Positions 4,715 through 53,169 of a stretch of 64,000 nucleotides of DNA are shown here, piece by piece. A program made the translations under genes and the position numbers. Below the pieces are notes generated by a model. That model worked only from the letters and a program-made list of their open reading frames with translations, ran no database searches and was not told the DNA's origin. Origin of the DNA: Microcella flavibacter (lineage in GTDB: Bacteria; Actinomycetota; Actinomycetes; Actinomycetales; Microbacteriaceae); the NCBI RefSeq assembly GCF_012530535.1, contig NZ_CP051299.1, positions 682,001 through 746,000 of the forward strand, read 5' to 3'. Within the stretch, counting starts at the first letter, position 1. Each line of letters begins with the position of its first letter.

Positions 4715-4958
4715 GAGATCCTCCGGTATTCGTCGACGGCGCGGCGCATCATCGACGATGCGCGCGACCGGATCCGTGCGGGTGCGCGGAGGAGGTGACC
4801 GGAAGCGATGAAGGCAACCACCGCTCCTCGACGGGTCGCATCGCCCGGGGTGGGCGACTCCGCGGCACGGAACGCCTCATTCTCGCAAGGCGTCGGCCGT
4901 TCGCGATAGTGCGGCGGGGCATCCCGCATCGAATGGATGCCCGCGGGGCGGCCGGGCG

Positions 4959-5333
4959 TCAGCTGGAGACGGCCGGCACGAGGCGCGGCGGCCCGGGGAT
5001 CAGCCCCAGCATCGCCACCCGCACCTCGCCCGCGGCGGTGACGGCGTAGCAGTTCCAGCCGATGGTCTCGAGGTTCGTCAGCTCGAAGGCGGCGCGCGCG
5101 GTGGTGCGCTCGCTCGCCGCGAGGTCGACCGCCAGGCGGCACGAGCGGGCGGCCGTGGACTGCGCGATGCCGAACGTCGTGAGCACCCCGGGGACGACCA
5201 TGGCGAGCATGGTCGCGATGGCGACCCACTTCATGACGCGGCGGCGGCGCTCGAAACGGTTCGCCGACTCCAGCTCGTCGAGCAGGTCGTCGTCGAAGCC
5301 GTCGTCGCGCAGCTCGCGGGGGTCGTCGTCCAT
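4959..5333 (-). CDS. Hypothetical single-pass membrane protein
   Basis: A 124-residue protein with a highly acidic N-terminus (MDDDPRELRDDGFDDDLLDELE), a basic patch (RFERRRRVMK), one membrane helix at about residues 36-56 and an extracytoplasmic domain of about 65 residues with two cysteines (SCRL and WNCY) that may form a disulfide. The acidic-basic-helix order predicts a cytoplasmic N-terminus. No family was recognised. A ggagg lies just before the ATG, rather close. The divergent APC permease starts 101 bp away. Codon use matches the chromosome, which supports a real gene. Confidence 0.65.
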   Translation of the reverse strand: MDDDPRELRDDGFDDDLLDELESANRFERRRRVMKWVAIATMLAMVVPGVLTTFGIAQSTAARSCRLAVDLAASERTTARAAFELTNLETIGWNCYAVTAAGEVRVAMLGLIPGPPRLVPAVSS

Positions 5334-5422
5334 CGCCTCCAGTGTCGCACGGGCGCCTCGGCGGGCGGCGGGCGCGGGAGCGGGGGCGCCGCCCGCGCCG
5401 CTCGCCCGTCACCCGCGCCGGA

Positions 5423-5434
5423 TAAGGTGCCCGG
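5423..5434 (+). promoter_or_regulatory. Leaderless-type promoter of APC permease
   Basis: TAAGGT at 5423-5428 ends 6 nt before the GTG at 5435, placing the predicted transcript start at the start codon. No ribosome-binding site is present. Confidence 0.55.
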
Positions 5435-6733
5435 GTGACCCCGGCCGCCGCCCCCGACCGCCCGCCCGCCCCCACGCCGGCGCTCGCCCGACGCATCGGC
5501 CTCGTCGGAGCCGTCGGCATCGGGCTCGCCTCGATGATCGGCGCCGGCGTCTTCTTCGTCTGGGCTCCCGCCGCGGCGGCCGCCGGCGCCGGGGGACTGC
5601 TGCCCGCCCTCCTCATCGCCGCCGTCATCGCCGCCCTCAACGCCGCGAGCTCGGCGCAGCTCGCCATGGCGCACCCCGTCGCGGGCGGCGCCTACGCCTT
5701 CGGCCGCCGCTGGGTCGGGCCGTGGACGGGCTTCATCGCCGGCTGGCTCTTCGTCACCGGCAAGACCGCCTCGGCCGCGGCCATCGCCTCCGTCGCCGCC
5801 GCCTACCTGTGGCCGGCGAACCCGACGCCCCTCGCCGCCGGGTTCGTCGTGCTGCTCGCCGCCCTCAACGCCTCGGGCGTGCGCACCACCGTGCGGGTCT
5901 CGATGGTCATCGTGATCGTCGTGCTGACGGGGCTCGCGATCGTGCTGGTCACGGCGGCCGTCGGGGGCGCCGCCCCGGTGGATGCTCCGCTCGCGCTCGA
6001 CGACGCGACCGTGCCGGGCGTGCTGCAGGCCGCCGCGCTGCTCTTCTTCGCCTTCGCCGGCTACGCGCGCATGGCGACCCTGGGTGAGGAGGTGCGCGAC
6101 CCGCGCCGAACGCTGCCGCGCGCGATCCTGCTCGCGCTGGGCATCGTGCTCGGCCTGTACGCGCTCGTCGCCGCCGTGCTCCTCGCCGGCCTCGGGCCGG
6201 CCGGGCTCGCGGCGAGCGACTCGCCGCTCGCCGCGCTGCTGCCGGACGAGGCGCGGCCGGCGGTGGCCGTGCTGGCGGGCATCGCCTGCCTCGGCTCGCT
6301 CGCGGGCATCCTGGCCGGTCTCAGTCGCACGAGCCTCGCGATGGCGCGCGAGCGCGACCTGCCCGGGCCGCTCGCCCGCGTCAGCGCGCGCACGAAGGCG
6401 CCCGTCGTCGCCGAGGCGATCATCGCCGCGGCCGCCGCCGTCATCGTCGTGCTGCTCGAGCCCGCCCAGCTCGTCGCCGCCTCGAGCGCCGCCGTGCTGC
6501 TCTACTACGCCATCGCGCACCTCTCGGCGCTGCGGCAGGAGGCCGAGCACCGCTGGCGCGGCAGCCGCGTCATCGCGGGCGCCGGGCTGGTGGGCTGCGT
6601 CGTGCTCGTCGTCGCGCTGCCGCCCGTGTCCCTGCTCGGCACGGCCGTGCTGCTGGCGACCGGGCTGCTGCTGCGCGCCCTCGCGCTGCTGCTCGCCCGC
6701 CGCCGGGCATCGGCCGGGGGAGCGCCGCGCTGA
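5435..6733 (+). CDS. APC-superfamily amino acid permease
   Basis: A 432-residue integral membrane protein with about 12 hydrophobic segments. The N-terminal signature GLVGAVGIGLASMIGAGVFFVWAPAAAAAGAGGLLPALL is the unwound TM1 substrate site of the APC family, and GYARMATLGEEVRDPRRTLPRAIL matches the conserved TM6 region of amino acid-polyamine transporters. Substrate cannot be told from sequence. The GTG start is set by the leaderless promoter layout. A small membrane protein gene follows after 20 bp. Confidence 0.88.
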   Translation: MTPAAAPDRPPAPTPALARRIGLVGAVGIGLASMIGAGVFFVWAPAAAAAGAGGLLPALLIAAVIAALNAASSAQLAMAHPVAGGAYAFGRRWVGPWTGFIAGWLFVTGKTASAAAIASVAAAYLWPANPTPLAAGFVVLLAALNASGVRTTVRVSMVIVIVVLTGLAIVLVTAAVGGAAPVDAPLALDDATVPGVLQAAALLFFAFAGYARMATLGEEVRDPRRTLPRAILLALGIVLGLYALVAAVLLAGLGPAGLAASDSPLAALLPDEARPAVAVLAGIACLGSLAGILAGLSRTSLAMARERDLPGPLARVSARTKAPVVAEAIIAAAAAVIVVLLEPAQLVAASSAAVLLYYAIAHLSALRQEAEHRWRGSRVIAGAGLVGCVVLVVALPPVSLLGTAVLLATGLLLRALALLLARRRASAGGAPR

Positions 6734-47410: not shown

Positions 47411-48538
47411 GTGATCTCGATCGATGAGTACGCCGCCCGGTTCCGCGAGGACCCGGGCTACCTGAACTTCGCCAGCGCCGGTCCGGTCGGCGACACCGTC
47501 GTCGCTGAGATGCGCGCGCAGTCGGAGATCTTCGCGCGCGCCCGCTTCGGCTCGCTGCCCGACGTGCTCGGGGAGGAGGAGCGGGTGGATGCGGCCGTCG
47601 CCCCGCTGCTCGGGTTCCGGCCGGATCAGGTGGTCTTCCAGCCGAGCACGAGCCAGGCGCTCATGCACGTCATGTTCGGGCTCACCGGCGGGCTCGCGCT
47701 GAGCGCGGGGGAGTTCCCCTCCGTCGGTTACGCCGCCGCCCGTGCGGCCGAGGCGCTCGGCGTGCTCGTGCCGCACGCCATCACCCCCGAGCACGAGCGC
47801 ATCACCCCGGCCGTCGTGCGCGACCAGATGGCCTCCTCCGTCGTCGCGGTCTGCGTGAGCCTCGTCGACTACCGCACCGGGCACCTGGTCGACCTCGAGG
47901 GCATCCGCCAGGTGATCGGCGACCGGCTGCTCATCGTCGACGCCATCCAGGGCGTCGGCGTCGTCGAGGCGCCGTGGGGGGTCGCCGACGTCATCGCGTC
48001 CGGCGGGCAGAAGTGGCTGCGGGCCGGGTACGGCACGGGGTTCCTCGCGATGAGCGACCGCGCGCGCGAGCAGCTCACGCCGGTGTGGTCGGGCTGGACG
48101 GCCGTCGGCGAGCTGCCGGACGGGCCCGATCACGACATCCGCCCGCCGCAGCCGGATGCGCGCGCGTTCCGCGTCGGCTTCGCCGACCCCGCGGCGCAGG
48201 GAAGACTGGCGGTCGCCGTCGAGGAGGTGCTGGACGTGGGCGTGGGGGTGCTGCGTGAGCGGGTGCTCGAGCGCGCCTCCCGGGTCGTCGACCTGCTGGA
48301 CGAGGTTGGCCTGCCCGTCGTGTCGCCGCGGGAGGACGCCGAACGGGCCGGGATCGTCGTCGCCGAGCCGGCACCGGAGCAGCTGAGCATCCTCACCGCC
48401 GCCCTGCACAACCACGGCGTCACCGTCACCGCGCGCGGGGGTCGGGTGCGCTTCGCCCCGCACGCCTCGACGAGCGACGAGACGCTCGAGCTGCTGCGCG
48501 AGAGCCTCGCCGAGTACCAGGCCGGCACCCGCATCTGA
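47411..48538 (+). CDS. Class V PLP-dependent aminotransferase
   Basis: 375 residues. PLP-lysine motif DVIASGGQKWLRAGYGTGFLAMS, the preceding VDAIQGVGVVEAPW Asp/Gln pair and an N-terminal YLNFASAGPVGD start typical of the cysteine desulfurase / kynureninase / alanine-glyoxylate fold. Substrate unknown. gaaggag at 47394-47400 precedes the GTG. The ISL3-bounded unit begins 13 bp after its stop, so the gene itself is intact. Confidence 0.88.
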   Translation: MISIDEYAARFREDPGYLNFASAGPVGDTVVAEMRAQSEIFARARFGSLPDVLGEEERVDAAVAPLLGFRPDQVVFQPSTSQALMHVMFGLTGGLALSAGEFPSVGYAAARAAEALGVLVPHAITPEHERITPAVVRDQMASSVVAVCVSLVDYRTGHLVDLEGIRQVIGDRLLIVDAIQGVGVVEAPWGVADVIASGGQKWLRAGYGTGFLAMSDRAREQLTPVWSGWTAVGELPDGPDHDIRPPQPDARAFRVGFADPAAQGRLAVAVEEVLDVGVGVLRERVLERASRVVDLLDEVGLPVVSPREDAERAGIVVAEPAPEQLSILTAALHNHGVTVTARGGRVRFAPHASTSDETLELLRESLAEYQAGTRI

Positions 48539-48543
48539 ACACC

Positions 48544-48551
48544 CGGTTACC
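48544..48551. repeat. Left 8-bp target site duplication
   Basis: cggttacc directly abuts the left terminal inverted repeat; an identical copy abuts the right one at 51635-51642. Confidence 0.9.
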
Positions 48552-48604
48552 GGCTCTTCCCAGATGAGGGTGTAGGTCGGCCGGGCGCGTCGGTCCGCAG
48601 ATAG

Positions 48605-48663
48605 ACGTCGAGGTCTCCCGACGACGGAGGTTCCTACGCCATCCATCCGAAAGACCTCGACGT
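48605..48663 (+). repeat. 12-bp inverted repeat in transposase leader
   Basis: acgtcgaggtct at 48605-48616 is exactly complementary to 48652-48663, enclosing a ggagg and reaching into the GTG start of the transposase fragment. Confidence 0.7.
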
Positions 48664-48717
48664 GCCCGACGCTACCCCGTCGGCCGGCTTCGGCCGCCCT
48701 GACCTGACCGCCTTCGC
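48662..48717 (+). pseudogene. ISL3 transposase, N-terminal fragment
   Basis: From a GTG the frame reads VPDATPSAGFGRPDLTAFA, resembling the start of actinobacterial ISL3 transposases (RPDLTxF). It is cut off at 48718 by sequence matching an IS end, so only about 18 codons remain. Identified from recollection of the family and position inside the left terminus. Confidence 0.55.
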
Positions 48718-48733
48718 GGCTCATCCCAATCGG
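48718..48733 (+). repeat. Nested ISL3 terminal repeat
   Basis: ggctcatcccaatcgg is identical to the outer 16 bp of the element's own right terminus (51634-51619 reversed) and interrupts the transposase fragment. Confidence 0.75.
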
Positions 48734-48945
48734 CTCTGATCGGGTCTGCTGACCCTCTCGACGAGAACGCAGCGACATCACAGCCACCCAACTCCGACCG
48801 TCCGGGAAGCCGGGGCACGTCACATGGGCTGTGCTGCGGGCGTGTCGAGTGGGTCGTCCAGGGGCGACGCAGGAGCGTCGACGCGACGTGCTGAGAGGTG
48901 GTTCCAACCGAGCGCTAGGACACAAGCTACAGGCATGGCGATAGG
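48734..48945. other. Non-coding spacer inside element
   Basis: About 210 bp with no supported gene; lower GC and less regular composition than the chromosome. Confidence 0.5.
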
Positions 48946-49887
48946 TCAGGAACGGCGTCGCTCCCTGCGCAGGAGGGAGCGCAGAGTCTCGGCGTTCGCG
49001 TAGCCGACCCGTAGCGCGATCTCGGCGGAGGTGAGGTCCGTGGTTGCTGAGAGGTGTCGAGCTCGTTCGGTGCGAAGCCGTTGGACGAAGCCGAGCGGAG
49101 TGAGGTTGAGCGCCGCACGGACTCGTCGTTCGAGGGTGCGCCGGCTGGTGCCGAGCGACTGCGCGACGAAGGCGACGTTGAACGGTTCGTCCAGGCGGGC
49201 GCGCACGAAGCGTTCGAACTCGACGACGATCGGGTCCTCGTGCCGGAGATGTTCGTAGGCGACGAAGGCCGCCTGCGACGGACGCTCGTCGATGATGAGG
49301 AGCTTGGCGACATGTTGGGCCAGGTCGGGGCTGATCGATCGCACGAGTGAGAGCGCGAGGTCGATGTGGGCGAACGCGGCGCCGGCGGTGACGAGGTTCC
49401 CGTCGACCACGACCATGGTGTCGAGATCGAGGGCGACGGTCGGATAGCGCTTCCGGAACTCCGGCCCCAGGAACCAGCTGGTCGTCGCCCTCCGATGATG
49501 CATCCGTCCGGTCTCGGCGACAGCGAACACGCCGGTGCACGCCGCGGCGATCCGGGTGGTCGCCTCGTCGAGGCGCCCGAGCGAGGCGATGACCGAACGA
49601 GCATCTCGGCTCTGGAGGACGTCGTTGGTAGCGGCGGCCGTAAGGGTTCCAAGCGCAGGGACGACGACCACGTCGAACTCTCCGGACTCCGACAGCGGGT
49701 GGTCCACCGACAGGGTCATCGATGCCGTCGTGGTCACTCGCCGTTTCGGTCCGAGGATGGCGAGTTCGATCGGGTCGATCCGCGGGTCGACATCGCCGCG
49801 GGCTCCGTCGGCCACCCGCACGATGTCGATGACCGACGCGACCGCCGAACCGAGGCAGCCGTCGATCGCGATCAGTCCGATACGCAT
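48946..49887 (-). CDS. GlxA-type AraC regulator (DJ-1/PfpI domain plus HTH)
   Basis: 313 residues. The N-terminal DJ-1/PfpI-like domain has RIGLIAIDGCLGSAVASVIDIVRVAD, FDVVVVPALGT and the nucleophile-elbow-like IAAACTGVFAVAETG with a Cys. The C-terminal AraC double helix-turn-helix has LDEPFNVAFVAQSLGTSRRTLERRVRAALNLTPLGFVQRLRTERARHLSATTDLTSAEIALRVGYANAETLRSLLRRE. The ATG at 49887 is chosen because TATTGT on its strand ends 7 nt before it. Divergent from the small monooxygenase-like gene, its likely target. Codon use is less GC3-biased than the chromosome, fitting transfer. Confidence 0.88.
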   Translation of the reverse strand: MRIGLIAIDGCLGSAVASVIDIVRVADGARGDVDPRIDPIELAILGPKRRVTTTASMTLSVDHPLSESGEFDVVVVPALGTLTAAATNDVLQSRDARSVIASLGRLDEATTRIAAACTGVFAVAETGRMHHRRATTSWFLGPEFRKRYPTVALDLDTMVVVDGNLVTAGAAFAHIDLALSLVRSISPDLAQHVAKLLIIDERPSQAAFVAYEHLRHEDPIVVEFERFVRARLDEPFNVAFVAQSLGTSRRTLERRVRAALNLTPLGFVQRLRTERARHLSATTDLTSAEIALRVGYANAETLRSLLRRERRRS

Positions 49888-49894
49888 GACGTAA

Positions 49895-49951
49895 ACAATA
49901 GCAATACTGCCGTATACGCCACTCCCCACCGGCCCTCGCTCGTCATAGGCT
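49895..49951. promoter_or_regulatory. Divergent promoter region of passenger genes
   Basis: TATTGT (49900-49895, minus) serves the regulator and TAGGCT (49946-49951, plus) is a candidate -10 for the monooxygenase-like gene. An 8-bp palindrome cgtatacg lies between at 49911-49918. Confidence 0.45.
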
Positions 49952-49994
49952 GAATTCGTCCCACGAAGAACACCGACGTCAAGGAGAGTCCCTC

Positions 49995-50306
49995 ATGTCC
50001 ACACCCTCATCACTTCCGTATGCCTTCGTCGCCAAGATCGTCGCGGCCGATGGACAGCACGACGCGCTCGCCGATCTGCTCGCCGGCGCTGTCGCACTCG
50101 CCAACGAAGAAGTAGGAACGATTGTCTGGTTCGCGGTCAGGACCCACGCCGACACCTTCTGGATCTTCGATGCATTCCCCGACGAGGCCGCTCGCGACGC
50201 CCACGCCAACGGCGCCATCGTCGCAGCCCTGATGGCCAACCAGCACCTCCTCGGCGCAGCACCCGAGATCCTGGCGGCCGACGTCCTCGCGTCCAAGCTC
50301 CCGTAG
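49995..50306 (+). CDS. Small antibiotic-biosynthesis-monooxygenase-like protein
   Basis: 103 residues with the dimeric alpha-beta barrel pattern: YAFVAKIVAADGQHDALADLLAGAVALANEEVGTIVWFAVRTHADTFWIFDAFPDEAARDAHANGAIVAALMANQHLLGAAPEI. This is the ABM/YgiN-type layout (FVAKI start, W/F-rich strands, AHxxG helix). Members act on quinones or reactive carbonyls without cofactors. aaggag lies before the ATG. Paired divergently with the GlxA-type regulator inside the ISL3-bounded element. Confidence 0.8.
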   Translation: MSTPSSLPYAFVAKIVAADGQHDALADLLAGAVALANEEVGTIVWFAVRTHADTFWIFDAFPDEAARDAHANGAIVAALMANQHLLGAAPEILAADVLASKLP

Positions 50307-50877
50307 TCCGCCAACGCACGAGACGATCGCGCCCCGCCGAGCCGTCGGACCCGACCGCCTCGACACCCGCACCACGTTGACGATCCCCGACGGGCCGATC
50401 ACGAGGGGGGCCAGGCAACACCAGGCGCAAGCCTGGAGCGGCACTGGTTCACCGGTGGTCATCGAGAGAGCCAGCGCGGTTCCATGGCAGCGCAACTGTG
50501 TCAACTTGCCCTCCGTCCCGCTAGGCGCCGTGGGCGGGTCTTGGTTGCGATCCGTTGCCGTGACGGGAGACGCGTTGCGCGTCGCAGCGATGACGGGTCG
50601 TTGGCGTTCCGGGGCTTTGCGTTCGTGCGCGTCGCCCGTGCGGCATGGAACATCTCGCTGCGCACACAACGATCGCTGCGCCGACGCACCGTTGACACCT
50701 CGCACGTCCAGGTCGCGAACAACGCCACGCCGCGTTGCCGAGCGGAGCGAGGCCTATCGGCACACGGACAGGATGCCGGCCGCGAGCGCTCAGCCGGGGA
50801 GGGGTCCGTCGCAGAGGAGAGCGACGTCGGTGTCGGGCACAGCCGTGAGGCCAGCGCATCGCGCGACCACCAGAACC
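50307..50877. other. Gene-poor segment inside element
   Basis: About 570 bp. Long open frames exist on both strands but none has a start signal, normal codon bias or a recognisable product. It could be decayed coding sequence. Confidence 0.55.
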
Positions 50878-50919
50878 GAACAGCCCCTGCACTGCGTTTC
50901 CGCAGGTCAGGGGCTGTTC
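50878..50919 (-). terminator. Terminator after the tRNA fragment
   Basis: A 12-bp stem (gaacagcccctg at 50878-50889 with 50908-50919) enclosing an inner ctgcg-tttc-cgcag hairpin, 6 bp beyond the tRNA fragment's 3' end. Confidence 0.75.
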
Positions 50920-50925
50920 GCCAGG

Positions 50926-50960
50926 GCCGCCTGTCGGAATCGAACCGACGACCTAATCAC
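50926..50960 (-). pseudogene. tRNA 3' fragment, probably tRNA-Thr
   Basis: On the minus strand: end of the anticodon stem (gtgatt), variable loop aggtc, a complete T arm gtcgg-ttcgatt-ccgac and the 3' acceptor strand aggcggc. The 5' half is missing. The 3' sequence is that expected of actinobacterial tRNA-Thr(UGU). Either a broken tRNA gene or an attachment-site core left by a tRNA-targeting integrative element. Confidence 0.7.
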
Positions 50961-50980
50961 GTCGGCTTTGCGTCTATCGC

Positions 50981-51631
50981 TTCCGTGACGCGGTCGAGGT
51001 GGTCGCGATGGACGGCTTCACCGGGTTCAAGACCGCCGCTGCAGAGGAGATCCCGGACGCGGTCACGGTGATGGATCCCTTCCACGTCGTGCGCTTGGCC
51101 GGTGACGCCCTCGTCAGGTGCCGGCGCCGGGTCCAACTCGCGATCCACGGGTACCGTGGGTTCAGGGACGACCCGCTCTACACGTCGCGGCGCACGCTGC
51201 ACACCGGCGCGGACCTGCTCACCGACAAGCAGAGCGACAGGCTACGCGCGCTGTTCGTTGATGACGCTCACGTCGAGGTCGAGGCGACCTGGGGTGTCTA
51301 CCAGCGCATGATCGCCGCCTATCGCCACGAGGACCGGCAACGTGGCCGCGAGCTCATGGAGAAGCTGATCACCGATCTCAGCGCCGGCGTCCCCAAGGTG
51401 CTCACCGAGCTCACCACCCTGGGCCGGACCCTGAAGAAGCGAGCCGCTGACGTGCTCGCCTACTTCGAACGACCCGGTACCAGCAACGGGCCGACCGAGG
51501 CGCTCAACGGACGGCTCGAACACCTGCGCGGCTCCGCATTCGGGTTCCGCAACCTGACCAACTACATCGCCCGAGGCCTGCTCGAGACCGGCGGCTTCAG
51601 ACCCCAACTTCTACACCCCCGATTGGGATGA
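50981..51631 (+). pseudogene. ISL3 transposase, C-terminal half
   Basis: About 216 codons of an approximately 430-residue ISL3 transposase. It begins in the DDE catalytic domain (RDAVEVVAMDGFTGFKTAAAEEIPDAVTVMDPFHVVRLA) and runs through DLSAGVPKVLTELTTLGRTLKKRAADVLAYFERPGTSNGPTEALNGRLEHLRGSAFGFRNLTNYIARGLLETGGFRP to a TGA just inside the right terminus. The N-terminal zinc finger, HTH and first catalytic Asp are missing. The remaining frame is intact, so the break is recent. A GTG at 50999 could start a truncated protein. Confidence 0.88.
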
Positions 51632-51634
51632 GCC

Positions 51635-51642
51635 CGGTTACC
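51635..51642. repeat. Right 8-bp target site duplication
   Basis: cggttacc, identical to 48544-48551. Confidence 0.9.
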
Positions 51643-51813: not shown

Positions 51814-53169
51814 ATGGTGGCCGCTTCCGACACCTCCCGCCAGGCAGTTTCCGCTCAGACGACCGAGCAGGGGGTGGCACAGCGCACCTACGTGCTCGAC
51901 ACCTCCGTGCTGCTGAGCGATCCGAAGGCCCTGTTCCGCTTCGCCGAGCACGCGGTGGTCATCCCCGTCGTCGTCATCGGCGAGCTCGAGGCCAAGCGCA
52001 ACGATCCCGAGATCGGGTACTTCGCCCGGCAGGCGCTGCGCAACCTCGACGAGCTGCGGGTGCTGCACGAGCGTCTCGACTTCCCCATCGCGGTGGGGGA
52101 TGCCGGCGGATCGATCCGCGTCGAGCTCAACCACTCCAACCAGTCGGTGCTGCCCTCGGGGCTGCAGCTGGGCGACAACGACTCGCGCATCCTCGCCGTG
52201 GCGATGAACCTCGCCAACGACGGACTGCACGTGGTCGTCGTCTCGAAGGATCTGCCGATGCGGGTGAAGGCCTCGTCGATCGGCCTCGCCGCGGAGGAGT
52301 ACCGCGCCGAGCTCGCCGTCGACTCGGGCTGGACGGGCACCGACGACGTGCGCCTCTCGAGCGAGCAGATGTCGACCCTCTACGACCGCGAGACGATCGA
52401 GACCTCGACCGTGCGCGACGTGCCGATCAACACCAACCTCGTCATCCACTCCGACCGCGGCTCGGCCCTCGGCCGGGTCTCCGAGCCCGGGCGCATCAGC
52501 CTCGTGCGCGGCGACCGCGACGTCTTCGGTCTGCACGGCCGCTCGGCCGAGCAGCGCCTCGCGATCGACATGCTGCTCGACCCGCAGATCGGCATCGTCT
52601 CGCTCGGCGGCCGCGCCGGCACCGGCAAGTCGGCGCTCGCCCTCTGCGCCGGGCTCGAGGCGGTGCTCGAGCGGCAGCAGCAGCGCAAGATCATGGTGTT
52701 CCGCCCGCTGTACGCGGTCGGCGGTCAGGAGCTCGGCTACCTGCCCGGCGACGCGAGCGAGAAGATGAACCCCTGGGCGCAGGCCACCTTCGACACCCTC
52801 GGCAGCGTCGTCTCGCAGAACGTGCTCGACGAGGTCATCGACCGCGGCATCCTCGAGATCCTGCCGCTCACGCACATCCGCGGCCGCTCGCTGCACGACG
52901 CCTTCGTGATCGTCGACGAGGCGCAGTCGCTCGAGCGCAACGTGCTGCTCACGGTGCTCAGCCGCATCGGCCAGAACTCGAAGGTCGTCCTCACGCACGA
53001 CGTCGCCCAGCGCGACAACCTGCGGGTCGGCCGCCACGACGGCGTCGCGAGCGTCATCGAGACCCTCAAGGGGCACGGGCTGTTCGGGCACATCACCCTT
53101 ACCCGCTCCGAGCGAAGCGCGATCGCCGCGCTCGTGACCGATCTGCTGGAGGGCAACGAGCTGGCCTGA
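51814..53169 (+). CDS. PIN-PhoH (PhoH2-type) ATPase
   Basis: 451 residues fusing an N-terminal PIN ribonuclease domain ([39 protein letters not shown]; acidic residues also in [12 protein letters not shown] and [11 protein letters not shown]) to a C-terminal PhoH ATPase (Walker [17 protein letters not shown], Walker [14 protein letters not shown], and [14 protein letters not shown]). PhoH2 proteins are RNA-unwinding ribonucleases. The ATG at 51814 has only ggag very close, so an upstream or downstream start is possible. It lies 171 bp after the mobile element. Confidence 0.9.

Follow-up and report, generated by a model that had tools for sequence, protein, structure and literature searches.

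Insertion sequences (ISs) of the ISL3 family have related terminal inverted repeats and make an 8-bp target duplication. The subject here is a block of 3,083 bp with ISL3-type ends in a 64,000-nucleotide stretch of the Microcella flavibacter genome (hereafter the window; positions 682001-746000 of NZ_CP051299.1, the one contig of this 2.62-Mb genome). Among the closest described systems, ISPst2 is an ISL3 element with an ArsR regulator and a permease, and 8-bp direct repeats were reported for ISPst2a and ISPst2b (PMC6305408), while ISPpu12a is an ISL3-family element with passenger genes (PMC4133298). A mobile insertion cassette has ISPfr11 termini and no transposase (PMC2909200), and a chromosomal insertion of vanHAX is accompanied by an 8-bp duplication, with an ISL3 element at its 3' end, its mechanism being called uncharacterised (PMC11702846). 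ISPfr2, an IS of Propionibacterium freudenreichii, was reported in all B. aurantiacum strains (PMC6579920). In its structure, the window block is very probably a deletion derivative of an ISPfr2-like ISL3 transposon, probably no longer self-mobile. As a copy it is ordinary in kind; what is new is the unit of its family, in which an IS stub and an IS enclose a conserved two-gene cargo.

As far as the available excerpts of these sources go, ISPst2 and ISPpu12a resemble this unit in that their ISL3 ends enclose additional genes along with one transposase; in ISPst2 these genes are a regulator and an effector. Both their ends and the genes they carry are different. The present unit has an IS stub ahead of its cargo and, in many copies, retains a second, altered end inside. 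The ISPfr11 cassette likewise has IS ends without a working transposase, but from another IS, and unlike that cassette, the defect here is a deletion of one lineage in a mainly transposase-bearing element. The vanHAX insertions are similar in that DNA beside a single ISL3 element was inserted with an 8-bp duplication; these events, however, belong to one strain and do not form a fixed unit spreading as a lineage. Record annotations name the downstream transposase of the units as ISL3-like element ISPfr2 family, whereas the excerpts that name ISPfr2 mention no cargo. No description of a stub-cargo-IS unit was found in the excerpted literature on ISPfr2, ISL3, transporter ISs (tISs) and ABM; ISfinder, which lay outside this search, may name it.

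Whole units and the window deletion

The preliminary description of this locus had proposed terminal inverted repeats and identical 8-bp flanks around 3,083 bp, and both are present. The element proper (48552-51634) has ends that match at 19 of 24 positions, which 0 of 20,000 random pairs drawn from the same 4-kb region reached, and CGGTTACC stands on both sides. The empty site predicted by joining the flanks was also found: 700 bases of each window flank, fused so as to leave a single 8-mer, align collinearly with the same-genus genome G018 over 1,400 bp with 0 gaps and 93% identity.

Relatives were sought by a DNA search of 99 genomes and a plasmid collection and by a transposase search of genome contigs. 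The transposase search confirmed 543 relatives, of which the best 80 serve as contig loci here, with 83-97% identity over the transposase stretch matched. Together the searches yielded lone ISPfr2-like elements of ~1,440 bp alongside units, some of them whole and others broken. As seen in R. erythropolis X5 (L117), the 4,076-bp unit consists of a 166-bp stub, 2,266 bp of cargo, a 205-bp spacer and a complete IS of 1,439 bp, a plan that recurs in many other copies. Units of relatives are mostly 3.2-4.1 kb long: one variant of ~3,715 bp is without ~360 bp of non-coding cargo, and a class of ~3,191 bp is without the inner left inverted repeat (IRL), with cargo position 1627 running directly into IS position 28. 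Two copies that have duplications are longer (4,683 and 5,421 bp). Where the left end is visible in relatives it is the stub, except in L115 (Rhodococcus sp. BH4), in which an inverted second IS replaces most of the stub and opposite-facing IS copies surround the cargo. A second deletion form, of 2,452 bp with cargo position 1697 joined to IS position 848, occurs in L102 and L105 at one site with the duplication ATCAAGAC and in L103 elsewhere, without a matching duplication. Further broken or cut forms include L098, L106, L136, L137, L139, L162, L199 and L200, the stretches of L136, L137, L139 and L162 being short.

The family is mainly transposase-bearing. A cargo match is present in 60 of the 80 contig loci, in one piece of at least 1,000 bp in 56, and among these 60 the transposase is open end to end in 38, full length with a broken frame in 11, and without an end-to-end alignment in 11.

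Against this background, the window unit falls 993 bp short of L117. Its junction reads CTATCGCTTCCGTGACG, where the cargo end of the whole unit has CTATCGCTTGATGCG and its IS has GACGCCTTCCGTGACG, with a 3-bp overlap (CTT) common to all three. The right 655 bp, separated from the stub by ~2.26 kb, are 98.5% identical to the 3' part of the ISPfr2-like IS and score as ISL3 transposase (PF01610, E 7e-42, 144 bits, positions 57-239 of 240; NF033550, E 1.5e-52, 179 bits at the protein level, where the cut-off is 180, and 186.4 in the genome search). The element thus has the ends and duplication of the ISL3 family, with the transposase represented by a fragment only. Without its 5' half, the window transposase is presumably not functional. 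Architecture, duplications, empty site and deletion junction are all read from the DNA itself.

The preliminary description held that the cargo had replaced the middle of the transposase. Taken alone, the window does look like a single ISL3 transposase gene into which cargo was inserted, or whose middle it replaced, since one 5' stub and one 3' part point in the same direction. This reading is extremely improbable, because relatives carry the cargo between a stub and a complete downstream IS, with a ~205-bp cargo-IS spacer that has no counterpart in the window, and because the stub of the window and those of relatives end at IS position 167, whereas the 3' fragment begins at 786 in the window and at 848 in the other deletion form. 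The two separated pieces of transposase described earlier do exist, but, judging from relatives, stub and right fragment would come from two different IS copies, and the window block corresponds to a whole unit minus ~1 kb.

A genome search found no other ISL3 transposase and no second copy of the element in the host genome, so the transposase able to act in trans that was proposed as a check was not found there, and the window copy appears stranded unless transposase comes from outside. A full-length related ISL3 transposase is present in the congener G004 (L124). We considered that the 3,083-bp form might be a working non-autonomous carrier, that is, a mobile insertion cassette brought in by a transposase acting in trans. 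The perfect 8-bp duplication and usual outer end sequences of the window copy agree with this, as do the independent 2,452-bp form at two different sites (L102/L105 and L103) and the full-length IS in the same genus. Nevertheless it is rather unlikely: the 30-base window junction, with up to 3 mismatches allowed, occurs in 1 of 398 Microbacteriaceae genomes, the window's own, the host has neither a second copy nor another ISL3 transposase, and L103 lacks a matching duplication. As a class, a mobile insertion cassette, with IS ends around a cargo and no working transposase, does describe the window copy, the loss of activity being presumed. The term non-autonomous ISL3 carrier used earlier is apt for the ISL3 ends and the present want of a whole transposase, but not for the family, in which the transposase is mostly retained.

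Outer ends, target duplications and movement

Of 91 sequences entered into a duplication test, 45 showed a single stub and a single right end, each with its flank; the window is among them. Exact 8-bp duplications are found at the outer ends of 37 of these 45 copies, 36 of them distinct; when flanks were re-paired, 1,000 shuffles gave on average 0.9 identical pairs and never more than 4. The flank of the inner IRL, by comparison, is never shared with the right flank (0/29). The tip departs from GGCTCTTCCC in 24 of 29 inner IRLs and in 4 of 50 outer ones. A or T occupies positions 4 and 5 in 43 and 41, respectively, of 45 distinct duplications, lone ISs included.

A classical composite transposon, with the cargo mobilised by either IS and nothing but chance keeping the pieces together, would account for the two IS-derived ends that flank the cargo, for the downstream IS copies at several different cargo-end positions and for the inverted extra IS on the left of L115; the inner IRL tips that are unaltered (5/29) also fit it. 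We consider it improbable, as the left end is a stub wherever visible, with the exception of L115, duplications belong to the outer and not the inner ends, and only one pair of ends exists in the 3,191-bp class. The two complete ISs that define a composite are also wanting here, the left one being a stub and the window's right one truncated, although the cargo does move with the outer ends, as in a composite (37/45). The ~3,191-bp class can be classified as a tIS; the window copy, which has no whole transposase, cannot.

We propose that in the whole transposon the left stub would supply the outer IRL and the complete ISPfr2-like IS the transposase and the outer right inverted repeat (IRR). The transposase would act on outer IRL and outer IRR, moving ~3.2-4.1 kb as one unit, and insertion, into sites whose centre is rich in A and T, would create the 8-bp duplication. 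The unit of the window lineage would have inserted between two genes that we take to be aminotransferase-like on one side and PhoH-like on the other; because the insertion sits between an upstream stop at 48538 and a downstream start at 51814, the element breaks neither neighbouring open reading frame. Before or after insertion, ~1 kb would have been lost between the cargo end and mid-transposase at the 3-bp overlap.

Several observations weigh against this scheme. Eight of the 45 outer pairs are without an exact duplication (one differs by one base), five of the 29 inner tips are unaltered, and the deletion may have preceded the insertion, an order on which the duplication is silent. In addition, the lone IS in G004 (L124), which has the altered tip GGGTCTTCTC, carries the duplication CGATTCAG, and therefore an altered inner end can still work and the unit is not obligate.

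The L124 copy is a full-length, lone ISPfr2-like IS at 4834-6272 on the minus strand. Its duplication is one base off CGTTTCAG, the inner flank of many units.

An exact 16-bp copy of the right-end tip directly follows the stub in the window (from 48718), and this junction is present in relatives too. The tip was considered as a working end and checked in one copy whose left part is cut, L112, which retains the last stub bases before the tip and hence gives no sign of its use.

The two-gene cargo and its possible role

The cargo had been described as a GlxA-type AraC regulator plus an ABM-like protein, and the domain searches bear this out. The regulator has PF01965 and PF12833 above cut-off, as expected of GlxA-type AraC proteins; the equivalog cut-offs of FtrA and GbdR are not reached. 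By sequence, the ABM match is weak (PF03992, E 0.001; 19.6 bits, cut-off 23.1), but the ferredoxin-like alpha-beta fold of ABM domains is supported by a predicted model whose best PDB match is 2pd1 (scores in Table 1). Lower-ranked structure matches are Rv0793, LsrG, YgiN and PA0709, the last crystallised with a glyoxal modification.

Both genes are well conserved in comparisons of the DNA. Among qualifying copies (at least 93% identity and at least 97% length, which excludes copies cut by contig ends), the regulator is intact, meaning open and gap-free, in 74 of 74 and the ABM gene in 77 of 77. The N-terminal transposase part is broken in 13 of 79 and the C-terminal part in 2 of 78, two more C-terminal parts having in-frame gaps; lone IS copies are included in these transposase counts. 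Broken copies thus number 0/151 for cargo genes versus 15/157 for transposase parts (Fisher p 4e-5, a nominal value, as copies are related). Seventeen loci were excluded as duplicates, L132 and L158 among the excluded having no matching record, and other duplicates may remain. That the cargo is kept better than the transposase points to a benefit from the two-gene module. The ratios of nonsynonymous to synonymous polymorphism (pN/pS) are 0.27 for the regulator and 0.25 for the ABM gene beside 0.39 and 0.34 for the N- and C-terminal transposase parts. Two points temper these comparisons: the pN/pS values are uncorrected, and most loci were baited by the C-terminal transposase part, a choice that disfavours broken copies of it.

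Divergence between copies is 8.5% in the intergenic region, 1.4-1.6% in the genes, and 3.9% and 2.2% in two other non-coding stretches. The intergenic region (49888-49994) was considered as a conserved operator and rejected, as over its whole length it varies five to six times more than the genes. The block-wise variation of this putative divergent promoter region suggests mosaic alleles.

The cargo, matched at no less than 96% identity along 1,400 bp or more of the 1,617 bp compared, is found in 14 of 398 Microbacteriaceae genomes, the window's own included (a wider tally of 151 in that search takes in short chance matches), and the ABM protein at 98% or more in 9 of 394 genomes of the class, again with its own. 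Of the plasmid records, 105 match some part of the element, and 16 (H1-H16) among the best 40 of these 105 hold the cargo. When the left 194 bp were compared with the plasmid collection at the best place per record, 14 of 18 records extended beyond the 166-bp stub, all 14 being among H1-H16; Rhodococcus BH4 and R. qingshengii CP077418 matched only the IS part at that place, and two second-best places in plasmid records held the same cargo. As to the further copies envisaged in the preliminary description, those found have the same cargo; copies sharing both ends but carrying different cargo were not seen in the plasmid collection, which was looked at in part, genome collections not being searched for them.

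One unit (L059) lies in a record named Sporosarcina beigongshangi, by name another phylum. As its flanks have 57% and 69.5% G+C, either a cross-phylum transfer or a contaminated contig is possible.

With the regulator as query, 11 of 346 genomes of the phylum gave E values of 1e-30 or lower, the window's own included. Three of them, from outside the class (G920, G1052 and G1042), have a regulator of 83-91% identity and an adjoining divergent ABM gene of 82-92%. At the DNA level, the transposon-free pair is 89% identical in L211 and 81% in L212 and L213. Since homology is confined to roughly the two genes, and neither an IS nor a transposase was matched within 10 kb in L211, L212 or L213, the captured module was probably the pair itself; the donor proper was not found.

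The regulator domains, the ABM fold matches and the neighbours of homologues together make a response to reactive aldehydes or quinones the likeliest role of the module, although with much less confidence than the structural account. We tentatively suggest that the DJ-1/AraC protein acts as the sensor of a reactive small molecule and turns on the adjacent ABM protein, which may help detoxify aldehydes or quinones. Among 21 distant ABM loci (34-60% identity), five have a divergent regulator. In 12 ABM homologue loci retrieved at larger size, a Zn-dependent dehydrogenase gene lies no more than 0.5 kb upstream of the ABM homologue in L187, L188 and L196, and a DJ-1/PfpI gene no more than 0.9 kb upstream in L197. 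Speaking against this role, the other 16 of the 21 distant loci show no regulator in the stretch covered on either side, at most 1.5 kb, the neighbours of 7 of the 12 larger loci were not scanned apart from one regulator, and 2pd1, the nearest solved ABM relative, is of unknown function.

On Dietzia plasmid pDK2035-77 (L119), genes annotated as formaldehyde dehydrogenase, type 1 glutamine amidotransferase and a second ABM protein lie beside the element.

Further features and the family as a whole

The features of the window element are collected in Table 1. At the far end of the cargo, the tRNA-Thr 3' fragment and the hairpin look like remains of a donor or an island. In relatives, the downstream IS starts at the end of the tRNA-Thr-like fragment (L118) or 13 bases beyond it (L039).

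Table 1. Features of the element, in window coordinates
Feature	Position	Strand	Basis
Target duplication, left copy, 8 bp CGGTTACC	48544..48551		Same as 51635-51642; empty site in G018
Left terminal inverted repeat (IRL)	48552..48575	+	19/24 match to right end
5'-end stub of first ISPfr2-like IS, 166 bp	48552..48717	+	97% to IS reference positions 2-167; stub also in relatives
Internal exact 16-bp copy of right-end tip, inverted, directly after stub	48718..48733
GlxA/FtrA-type regulator, DJ-1/PfpI plus AraC-type helix-turn-helix, 313 aa	48946..49887	-	Pfam
Putative divergent promoter region between regulator and ABM gene	49888..49994		Promoter role presumed
ABM-domain protein (predicted fold), 103 aa	49995..50306	+	AlphaFold model pLDDT 94; 2pd1 TM 0.93
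Non-coding segment, ~360 bp, in some copies only	50348..50707		Comparison of copies
Terminator-like hairpin near cargo 3' end	50877..50920		Arms 90% complementary
tRNA-Thr 3'-end-like fragment, 36 bp	50924..50959	-	92% to host tRNA-Thr(CGT) gene
Deletion junction CTT, cargo end to mid-transposase	50980..50982		Comparison with 4,076-bp R. erythropolis X5 unit
3' part of second ISPfr2-like IS	50983..51634	+	ISL3 transposase, NF033550 position ~175 to 369
Right terminal inverted repeat (IRR)	51611..51634	-	19/24 match to IRL
Target duplication, right copy, 8 bp CGGTTACC	51635..51642		Empty site in G018

One possible reading of the family, which we offer with reserve, is that a composite ISL3 arrangement turned stepwise into one unit and carried into many genera of actinobacteria a self-contained, selected sensor-plus-ABM module, probably directed against reactive aldehydes or quinones, with the cargo outliving the transposase in several lineages, the window included. 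The conversion steps, whose joint occurrence is likewise conjectural, would be the reduction of the left IS to a stub, the mutation of the inner end and, in the 3,191-bp class, the loss of that end. The family offers natural forms that resemble halfway stages between composite transposons and tISs, with a stub, an altered inner end, a lost inner end and a lost transposase. We found no assigned function for the two-gene module, and its benefit is testable in actinobacteria.

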